64,000 bases of DNA from an uncultured Spirochaetaceae bacterium. GTDB lineage: Bacteria > Spirochaetota > Spirochaetia > Sphaerochaetales > Sphaerochaetaceae. Where the stretch lies: the NCBI GenBank assembly GCA_944389075.1, contig CALXLA010000034.1, forward strand, positions 1-64,000. The letters run 5' to 3'. A program made the position numbers and the translations under genes. Each line of letters opens with the position of its first letter. The first letter of the stretch is position 1. Below, piece after piece: positions 33 to 5,964 of this stretch. A model generated the notes under the pieces. The model saw nothing but the letters and a program-made list of their open reading frames with translations, did not search any database and had not been told where the DNA came from.

Positions 33-146
33 CCTGGCGGCCATAGCAGGGCGGCGATACCCGTTCCCATCCCGAACACGGAAGTAAAACGCCCTCGCGC
101 CGATGGTACTGCGGCCAAGTCCGCGGGGGAGTAGGTCGCTGCCAGG
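33..146 (+). rRNA. rrf: 5S ribosomal RNA, copy 1
   Basis: The terminal arms CCTGGC (33-38) and GCCAGG (141-146) pair to close the molecule. The interior holds the bacterial 5S signature CCCGTTCCCATCCCGAACAC and the closing GAGTAGGTCGCTGCCA. The length of about 114 nt fits 5S. Bases 1-32 before it carry a short ATCCT/AGGAT hairpin and may be the spacer behind a 23S gene outside the window. Downstream lie only T-rich bases and two small perfect hairpins. Confidence 0.95.
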
Positions 147-163
147 TTTTTATTTTTTATATC

Positions 164-3529: not shown

Positions 3530-4627
3530 GTGAGGAAATGGGAAACAGATCTGGCAGGATGCTACAGGAGCATTGCCTCAATATGCAAGCGCCTTGGAAT
3601 TTCTCCTGACGAGGCTGCGAAACTTGATTCGATTGCAGAGAAGTATCCTGTATGCATTCCTGAGTATTATCTAGGTGTGATTGATCCAGGGGATCCTGAG
3701 GATCCGATAAGGAAGATGGCAGTGCCATCTGCTATTGAATTCTCAGAAGGCGGTGCAAAAGATACTTCAGGTGAAGCTGATAATACTGTCATACCTGGAA
3801 TGCAGCATAAATACGGCAATACTGTCCTGATACTCTCTACTAACCAATGCGCGATGTACTGCCGCCACTGCTTCAGGAAAAGACTTGTCGGATTATCATC
3901 GGAAGAGGTAGCTGAAGAGCTTCCGCTGATGGCTGAGTACATAGGGAATCATCCGGAAATCGATAACGCCCTGATATCCGGAGGAGATTCATTCCTTAAC
4001 CCAACTTCTGTGATAAGGCAATATCTTGGGACATTCACAGCAATCGATACGATAAGATTCATCCGCTTCGGCACGCGTGTACCTGTCACTTTCCCTCAGA
4101 GAATCACAGAGGATGATGGGGAGCTTCTGGATCTTCTTGCAGAGTATCGCAGATACAGGGAAATCATAGTCGTAACACAGTTCAATCATCCGAAGGAAAT
4201 CACGGGAGAATCTACTGCCGCGATAAATGCGCTCAGAGAGGCTGGATGTATAATCCGCAATCAGACAGTCCTGCTCAAGGGAGTGAATGATGATCCTGAA
4301 ACGTTGTCAGCCCTTATGAATGGCCTTGTGCGCATAGGTGTCATGCCATACTACATTTTCCAGTGCAGGCCTGTTGAAGGAGTCAAGAACCAGTTCCAGA
4401 TCCCTATCCGGAAAGGAGCTGCAATCATAGATGAGGCCAAGAGGACAATGTCCGGACCTGCAAAATCGTTCAGATATGCAATGAGCCATCATACGGGAAA
4501 GATTGAGATCATTGGAGAGTCCGAAGGCAGGATGCTCTATAAGTACCATCAGGCAAAGTATCCTGAAGATAATGCCAGGATATTCAGCCGTCCGCTGAGT
4601 GATGAGTGCTGGTTCCTGAATCCATAA
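3530..4627 (+). CDS. KamA-family radical SAM aminomutase, altered substrate pocket
   Basis: This 365-residue enzyme combines a radical-SAM cluster site CxxxCxxC (Cys107, 111, 114) with the PLP lysine of the lysine 2,3-aminomutase family (Lys324). The counterpart of the carboxylate-binding Arg134 of clostridial lysine 2,3-aminomutase is Arg116. By motif alignment from memory, the two aspartates that hold the lysine epsilon-amino group (Asp293, Asp330) are replaced by Arg280 and Ala317. A 2,3-amino shift is therefore likely, but not on lysine; glutamate or another amino acid is possible. Start is GTG with GGAGG at 3521-3525. EpmB is an alternative, but no epmA or efp lies nearby. Confidence 0.8.
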   Translation: MRKWETDLAGCYRSIASICKRLGISPDEAAKLDSIAEKYPVCIPEYYLGVIDPGDPEDPIRKMAVPSAIEFSEGGAKDTSGEADNTVIPGMQHKYGNTVLILSTNQCAMYCRHCFRKRLVGLSSEEVAEELPLMAEYIGNHPEIDNALISGGDSFLNPTSVIRQYLGTFTAIDTIRFIRFGTRVPVTFPQRITEDDGELLDLLAEYRRYREIIVVTQFNHPKEITGESTAAINALREAGCIIRNQTVLLKGVNDDPETLSALMNGLVRIGVMPYYIFQCRPVEGVKNQFQIPIRKGAAIIDEAKRTMSGPAKSFRYAMSHHTGKIEIIGESEGRMLYKYHQAKYPEDNARIFSRPLSDECWFLNP

Positions 4628-4936: not shown

Positions 4937-4965
4937 TTGCATAAACATGCGGCCTTCTGCATAAT
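4937..4965 (+). promoter_or_regulatory. promoter of the metQ leader
   Basis: TTGCAT (4937-4942), a 17-base spacer and CATAAT (4960-4965) form a good sigma-70 promoter. Transcription would start near 4972, giving a leader of about 190 bases before metQ that contains the methionine-rich small ORF. Confidence 0.6.
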
Positions 4966-4982
4966 GTGACCATCAAAAGACA

Positions 4983-5057
4983 GGAGGACACTGAAAATGA
5001 CATTTATCTATACATTCTCAATGTGCATGTCCTCCATGATGATGCCCGTCAGGGCAT
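4983..5057 (+). promoter_or_regulatory. leader RNA structures before metQ
   Basis: The leader RNA holds an eight-base perfect stem (4983-4990 with 5028-5035), a nested ACATT/AATGT stem (5000-5004 with 5020-5024) and a downstream hairpin (5042-5047 with 5052-5057). Bases 5032-5036 (CTCCA) could instead pair with the metQ site TGGAG (5150-5154), which allows a switch. The U tract after 5057 is weak, so translational control is at least as plausible as attenuation. Confidence 0.5.
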
Positions 5058-5059
5058 AA
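4997..5059 (+). CDS. methionine-rich 20-residue leader peptide of metQ
   Basis: This short ORF encodes MTFIYTFSMCMSSMMMPVRA: six of 20 residues are Met, including a run of three. AGGAGG (4982-4987) lies nine bases before its ATG, one of the best ribosome binding sites in the window. GGAGGACA (4983-4990), which contains that site, is exactly complementary to TGTCCTCC (5028-5035), just before the Met run. ATGCCC (5042-5047) pairs with GGGCAT (5052-5057) over the last Met and stop codons. The position before the methionine-binding protein gene suggests that ribosome speed at Met codons senses Met-tRNA and controls metQ. This is inference; I know of no described family for it. Confidence 0.65.
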   Translation: MTFIYTFSMCMSSMMMPVRA

Positions 5060-5160
5060 TATTCTATTTCTCAATTAAGCTACATCTGTATCAGTATCTT
5101 TCCCCTCGATAGGGATAGTCTTACCGGATCAAAACAAAAATACATAGATTGGAGAAAACT

Positions 5161-5964
5161 ATGAAGAAAATATTTGCAGCAATTATCGTATCTGTCCTTG
5201 CTATTTCTGTAGCATTCGCATCTGGCTCAGCAGAAGCTGATCCGAACACAATCAAGGTTGGAGCGACACCTGCCCCACACGCCGCTCTCCTTGCCCTTGT
5301 CCAGGATGATCTTGCAGAGCAGGGAATCACTCTTCAGATTGTAGAGTTCACGGATTATGTGACACCTAATGAAGCTCTTGCGGCAGGTGAGCTTGATGCT
5401 AACTACTTCCAGCACCTTCCGTACCTTGAAAGCTACAATGCAGAGCGTGGCTATAATCTCGTAAGCGCTGGCGGAATCCATATCGAGCCGCTTGCACTCT
5501 ACAGCGAGAAATATGATTCAATCGATCAGATCCCGGCAGGTGCTACGATTGCGATCCCGAATGATCCTACAAATGAGGGAAGGGCACTTCTGCTTCTCCA
5601 GAGCGCAGGTCTTATAACTCTTAAGGAGGATGCTGGACTTGAAGCAATCCCTTCTGATATCGCAGAGAATCCAAACGGATACAAGTTCACTGAAATCGAG
5701 GCAGCATCGCTTCCAAGGATCCTCCCGGATGTAGATGCAGCTGTTATCAATGGAAACTATGCAATTCCTGCAGGCCTTATCGCGACACGTGATGGTCTTT
5801 ATGTTGAAGGTGCAGACAGCCCATATGTGAATGTCATCGCGGTACGCTCAGGAGATGAGACAAGGCCTCAGATCCAGGCTCTCGTAGAAGCTCTCAAGAG
5901 CGATGAAGTCGCAGCATATGTAGCAGAGCGCTATCCGAATGGTGAAGTCATTCTCGTTGACTGA
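5161..5964 (+). CDS. metQ: methionine ABC transporter substrate-binding protein
   Basis: MetQ/NlpA-family periplasmic receptor that delivers methionine to MetNI. The 267-residue protein starts at ATG 5161 with TTGGAG seven bases upstream; the in-frame TTG at 5149 overlaps that site and is rejected. Residues 1-20 form a signal peptide ending AFA. No cysteine follows, so unlike the lipoprotein MetQ of E. coli this one should be cut by signal peptidase I and be free in the periplasm. The NlpA-family features include KVGATPAPH near the mature N-terminus. It has its own leader and terminator, apart from metNI. Confidence 0.93.
   Translation: MKKIFAAIIVSVLAISVAFASGSAEADPNTIKVGATPAPHAALLALVQDDLAEQGITLQIVEFTDYVTPNEALAAGELDANYFQHLPYLESYNAERGYNLVSAGGIHIEPLALYSEKYDSIDQIPAGATIAIPNDPTNEGRALLLLQSAGLITLKEDAGLEAIPSDIAENPNGYKFTEIEAASLPRILPDVDAAVINGNYAIPAGLIATRDGLYVEGADSPYVNVIAVRSGDETRPQIQALVEALKSDEVAAYVAERYPNGEVILVD

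Follow-up and report, generated by a model that had tools for sequence, protein, structure and literature searches.

A methionine-rich leader peptide before metQ in Sphaerochaetaceae, probably a ribosome-mediated attenuator

Introduction

Why should a reading frame of 20 codons, six of which specify methionine, stand with a ribosome-binding site of its own directly before the gene for a methionine-binding protein? The question is raised by a contig of an uncultured spirochaete of the Sphaerochaetaceae, of which a stretch of 64,000 nucleotides (the window) was analysed here. Leader peptides have been described for several amino acids (Trp, His, Leu/Ile/Val, Thr, Phe and Cys among them; PMC1262725, PMC10272879). 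The control of methionine genes is listed as SAM riboswitches, methionine T-boxes and the protein regulators MetJ, MetR and SahR (PMC4239095), none of which is known to sense by translating Met codons. The first-pass annotation of this DNA had proposed a Met-tRNA-sensing leader that raises metQ expression when methionine is scarce. That proposal is supported by conservation, covariation, linkage to methionine genes and the existence of a His version, while the sign of the response and the level at which it acts are presumed from sequence. This paper discusses the leader, its relatives and the explanations that compete for it.

The leader at the metQ locus

The elements of the locus are as follows, in window positions and with the evidence for each.

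4937-4965, + strand: promoter, TTGCAT (4937-4942), 17-base spacer and CATAAT (4960-4965), predicted RNA start about 4972; sequence, same layout in relatives.
4982-4990, + strand: leader Shine-Dalgarno AGGAGG (4982-4987) and 5' arm of helix P1, GGAGGACA (4983-4990); sequence, covariation.
4997-5059, + strand: leader ORF, 20 codons and stop, MTFIYTFSMCMSSMMMPVRA*; translation, in-frame conservation, frame statistics.
5021-5044, + strand: Met codons 9 (5021-5023) and 11 (5027-5029) and the run 14-16 (5036-5044), presumed stall site; sequence, conservation.
5028-5035, + strand: 3' arm of P1, TGTCCTCC, in codons 11-13; covariation with the leader Shine-Dalgarno, exceeding the synonymous-codon control.
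5042-5057, + strand: hairpin P2, ATGCCC-GTCA-GGGCAT, beginning at the last Met codon and reaching the stop's first base; invariance in the genus, compensatory change.
5058-5080, + strand: U-rich tail after P2, presumed termination zone; position profile.
5101-5115, + strand: small variable hairpin in the spacer, found in many but not all relatives; RNAalifold.
5151-5155, + strand: metQ Shine-Dalgarno GGAGA, for which no covarying leader partner was found; sequence, negative covariation test.
5161-5964, + strand: metQ, methionine ABC transporter substrate-binding lipoprotein, presumed controlled gene; NCBIfam MetQ models.

The ORF and its AGGAGG site were described correctly in the first-pass annotation, translation of 4997-5059 giving Met at 6/20 codons, and the observation as a whole lies far outside what chance would give. 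The promoter-like layout that it placed upstream recurs in 44/44 genus sequences having the leader Shine-Dalgarno; a consensus promoter scan missed 4937-4965 because of the poor -35 box. The metQ product matches NCBIfam MetQ models with E 3.3e-67, below the curated cut-offs. In a scan of this genome with a Shine-Dalgarno/anti-Shine-Dalgarno pattern only the metQ site resembles a leader, and a covariance-model search of the same genome gave one match.

In this genome metQ is separated from metNI because an ORF at window 3530-4627 intervenes; by eye, this ORF, between metI and metQ, resembles a lysine 2,3-aminomutase-type radical SAM protein. Upstream of metNI lie two tandem 5S rRNA genes (window 33-147 and 222-335), and an apparent 5S rRNA end was also seen by eye just before metN in several genera with a metNIQ operon.

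A reading frame kept in relatives

The annotation had suggested asking whether the Met-rich ORF and the complementary segments are conserved while the rest diverges. Forty-eight genomes of the same genus were searched, nearly all of which have metQ orthologues, and the ORF is present before metQ in 45/45 loci having upstream DNA, including L045, where the ORF is kept without a clear Shine-Dalgarno. The genus leaders mostly have 20 codons, with Met typically at codons 9, 11 and 14-16, and end in MMMPxRA* or near it; the ORF and its Met codons are kept, the first half of the ORF diverges and P1 covaries. Across the family, peptide lengths run from 17 to 27, 20 being the commonest, the Met codons vary in number and place, and the peptide may end at MMMP*.

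That this is a reading frame is indicated by its statistics. In 89 distinct leaders ATG accounts for 26.2% of internal codons when they are read in frame, whereas the two other frames have 0.6% and 0.1%, which bears out the remark that Met use here is far above the usual. In addition, close-pair substitutions in the variable codons number 86/78/140 at positions 1/2/3. Two traits of leader-peptide attenuators are present at the locus: the gene is preceded by a short, presumably translated ORF that has a ribosome site to itself, and the codons conserved in this ORF belong to the amino acid that the product of the next gene handles.

Beyond the genus, diverged leaders (e.g. SMCMPWRA, MTMCMAMCMPSRA) were found upstream of metQ in six more genera of the family: g2, g7, g12, g13, g14 and g21. 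With E up to 0.1 allowed, the covariance model R1 matches 85/139 family genomes and 9/22 genera; chance accounts for some of its weakest matches, and the match in genus g18 is a His leader, not a Met leader. The covariance model R2 gave 0 matches outside the family among 395 genomes sampled from the class. In genera with metQ directly after metI (e.g. g16) a leader before metN was not found. The Shine-Dalgarno/anti-Shine-Dalgarno pattern scan was rejected as a leader detector within the genus, a reversed control pattern also giving many matches.

Outside this locus the family leaders precede metN (L240), a MetA homologue (L248), an O-acetylhomoserine sulfhydrylase gene (L244), genes for MetQ-like proteins (L236-L239, L243, L250-L253) and, in L245, a putative dehydrogenase gene followed by a methionine-aminotransferase-like gene. 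The element is one of gut and rumen relatives of Sphaerochaeta, standing before genes of methionine uptake and of methionine making. In L241 and L242 it precedes a gene for an OppA-like protein, which is not known as methionine-specific, and this counts against reading the element as a methionine attenuator. In L236, L237, L238, L239, L243, L250 and L253 the MetQ-like gene is followed by one for an M20-type amidohydrolase, and the first part of these MetQ-like proteins resembles the C-terminal half of MetQ while a later part resembles its N-terminal half, an order like that of a circular permutation.

Two conserved helices and a U-rich tail

The segment GGAGGACA at 4983-4990 contains the leader ribosome site and is the perfect complement of TGTCCTCC at 5028-5035, just before the Met run; this pairing (P1), noticed in the first pass, proved to covary. 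Each leader's Shine-Dalgarno pairs with its own codons 10-14 better than with shuffled partners (z 8.6). In 92 family sequences there are 113 cells with two-sided changes, against 33 in shuffles, on an alignment that was fitted to the structure and is biased that way, and on the same structure-fitted alignment of 92 sequences the covariation score of P1 is 0.346, against 0.017-0.130 for slid partners. P1 pairing also exceeds that of synonymous-codon controls (19.2 observed against 13.6). On the genus tree one pair has 3/3 concordant changes and another has a discordant change; the events counted on this tree are too few for any single pair to reach significance.

The second hairpin claimed for this leader, P2 over the last Met codon and the stop, likewise stands and is kept in relatives. 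Its stem is invariant within the genus, L251 and L252 have the compensatory stem ATGCGC/GCGCAT, L035 and L041 retain the stem with the stop codon in the loop, and L128 retains the stem core in a different codon phase. The compensatory support for P2, as read from these sequences, is thinner than that for P1. Taken together, P1 and P2 pair in 97.3% of cells on a MAFFT alignment, against 39-54% with slid partners. RNA folding with covariation, the other computational check suggested, agrees: unguided RNAalifold on 17 Met-leader sequences predicted P1, P2 and one further small hairpin, and the covariation of P1 lies above that of shuffles. As a whole the leader has an unremarkable folding energy (z -0.36), and the case therefore rests on comparison.

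Downstream of P2, the profile of 92 leaders shows a tail that is T-rich from position 5 and almost G-free at positions 4-15, and in the genus C exceeds G across the next 40 bases past the tail, unlike the DNA upstream of the promoter. P2 was flagged as terminator-like in a scan of the window for which the chance expectation is 0.7. Its U-tract begins about 5 bases past the stem, unlike that of the terminator after metQ, and this displacement speaks against P2 as a standard intrinsic terminator. The composition of the tail fits a weak intrinsic terminator or termination with Rho, and rho is present in this genome.

The first pass had also suggested that CTCCA at 5032-5036 could pair alternatively with the metQ site TGGAG. 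The complementarity is real; the pairing is unsupported (covariation z -0.7). Neither codons 10-14 nor the tail covary with the metQ Shine-Dalgarno, and on this ground both pairings were rejected. Furthermore, neither the covariation tests nor RNAalifold found a competing helix with covariation, that is, an antiterminator excluding P2 as in the classical trp type. The leader does have conserved RNA structure of the kind expected in an attenuator, and judging from footprint geometry this structure would depend on the position of the ribosome.

A sister leader with His codons

A weak match of the Met model carries His codons instead, ending VLHHGLHHAR*, before the gene for an amino-acid ABC transporter binding protein. 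Within the family, this His ending pattern is confined to genera g14 and g18, where 7/7 genomes have it.

L286-L289, L294, L307 and L357, genera g14 and g18: His leaders with the same P1/P2 layout.

P1 has 10 pairs in three of them and is shorter in the others, P2 lies over the last codons and the stop, and a U-rich tail follows; unguided RNAalifold on the His leaders gives P1 and P2. The best family names for the transporter are lysine/arginine/ornithine and cystine, with histidine lower and all under the cut-offs. A joint covariance model of Met and His leaders was dropped owing to poor alignment. The conserved elements that Met and His leaders share are P1, P2 and the tail only, and therefore P2 and the tail are the most likely seat of the output. 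There is about an even chance that these leaders represent a modular type of attenuator belonging to one bacterial family. In it a single hairpin on the stop codon would do the switching, leader initiation would be coupled by a second helix to where the ribosome stands, and a swap of the codon run (Met for methionine genes, His for another transporter) would change the amino acid sensed, all without an antiterminator.

Proposed mechanism

The metQ leader probably senses charged Met-tRNA, as a ribosome-mediated attenuator. The reading is built on features seen in the sequences themselves (the ORF, the Met codons, P1, P2, the tail, the promoter layout, the link to methionine genes and the His counterpart), to which stalling, a response that switches on under methionine shortage, and an output by termination are added as presumptions. 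The leader ORF would be translated from its own Shine-Dalgarno. When methionine is plentiful, the ribosome would pass the Met codons and depart, P1 would then close over the leader Shine-Dalgarno and stop fresh ribosome loading, P2 would form across the stop codon, and P2 with the U-rich, G-poor tail would cut most transcripts off short of metQ, acting as a weak intrinsic terminator or with Rho. When methionine is scarce, the ribosome would stall on codons 14-16 with its footprint, about 30 bases (PMC4824070), over the 3' arm of P1 and the 5' arm of P2, preventing P2, and RNA polymerase would read into metQ.

A ribosome waiting at codon 9 would leave P2 free, as would stalls at codons 9-11 generally, and a ribosome at the stop would cover P2 and free P1. 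Folding with the ribosome-covered stretches held open does no more than restate this geometry. If P2 and the leader Shine-Dalgarno are both open, the ribosome would be stalled at the terminal Met run, and for that reason P2 is the likely off-state; since a ribosome at the stop would also cover P2, that off-state needs release, or no loading, before the polymerase passes. A ribosome on or beside a terminator can block it, which applies next to a translated stop (PMC4824070). Both the stalls at codons 9-11 that leave P2 free and the covering of P2 by a ribosome at the stop count against the model, as do the displaced U-tract of P2 and the negative outcome of the search for an antiterminator.

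Other explanations

The same sensing of Met-tRNA by a stalled ribosome might act on translation or RNA stability, through access to the metQ site or protection of the RNA and without termination. The missing standard U-tract of P2 points that way, and so do two published cases: the cysteine leader peptides of Actinobacteria, whose description includes no obvious terminators (PMC1262725), and the Xanthomonas met 5' UTR, with its mainly translational effect (PMC6230763). This output is nevertheless rather unlikely here: the metQ Shine-Dalgarno does not covary with the tail or with codons 10-14, and nothing beyond P1, P2 and the tail is conserved in common with the His leaders. If instead the nascent peptide, with free methionine or S-adenosylmethionine, arrested the ribosome near MMMP, the Met-Met-Met-Pro near the end and the common length of 20 residues would be accounted for, and, Met having one codon, effects of codon and residue are inseparable by sequence. 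However, the non-Met residues diverge, Met positions shift, lengths range from 17 to 27, the peptide can finish at MMMP*, and the His version has the same architecture with different residues, all of which makes such an arrest improbable.

The strong paired structure, and ATG repeats that could be an RNA motif, might suggest an RNA-only element such as an undescribed riboswitch, with the ORF incidental. Against it, ATG is enriched in a single frame, substitutions are commonest at third codon positions, the number and placing of the Met codons differ between leaders, His replaces them before another transporter gene, and Rfam has no match beyond chance; we consider it very improbable. At the locus there is no match to any Rfam SAM family and none to a T-box, a relaxed Rfam threshold gives chance matches only, and this genome has no SAM-I match. 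Hardly credible, finally, is a functional Met-rich small protein (e.g. a metal-binding one) encoded before metQ by chance: a short Met-rich peptide with a good ribosome site would suit it, whereas its length and sequence are far from constant, covarying RNA helices run across the ORF, and the copies mostly precede methionine-linked genes.

The one T-box match of this genome, leader L354 (G000:C4:3485-3715, minus strand), precedes thrS. SAM-I riboswitch matches (L192-L215) occur in just 22/139 family genomes, this one not among them, and methionine control is therefore patchy in the family.

Relation to known leaders and significance

The trp, his and ilv attenuators likewise have a short ORF rich in codons of the amino acid handled downstream, with the position of the ribosome presumed to set the RNA structure. 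The same likeness extends to the ilvB uORF motifs of Corynebacterium and Leptospira (PMC10272879). Unlike all of these, the metQ leader would sense methionine, its Shine-Dalgarno pairs with codons of its own ORF, its effector hairpin overlaps the stop, and an antiterminator was not found. The metQ leader would work like a leader-peptide attenuator and is not classed as the trp type because no antiterminator of the classical kind turned up.

The closest described layout is that of uORFC-8-2 before cysS in Rhodobacterales, a short peptide with Cys codons usually at 14-15, within a stem, a U-run at the 3' end, and presumed read-through when charged tRNA is short; it differs in the amino acid (cysteine), the phylum and the gene, which encodes a tRNA synthetase, and pairing of the Shine-Dalgarno is not mentioned in the parts of that paper drawn on here (PMC8632094). 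In the LEU element before leuA of Actinobacteria a leader codon run also pairs with a Shine-Dalgarno, although the partner there is that of the structural gene, in a pseudoknot (PMC1262725), whereas in the metQ leader it is the leader's own. The 5' UTR of the Xanthomonas met operon likewise responds to methionine in a Gram-negative bacterium, but a leader peptide is not mentioned and control is mainly translational (PMC6230763). The first-pass annotation had judged that a methionine leader peptide would be new, and none was found in the open-access literature searched; the claim of novelty extends to that literature only.

If the reading is true, methionine, so far missing, would join the amino acids with leader peptides, and the element poses the question of how a leader senses methionine when initiation itself needs methionine. 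The Met and His versions on one scaffold would be natural swaps of the sensing codons. Moreover, the element would mark a methionine regulon in mostly uncultured gut spirochaetes.
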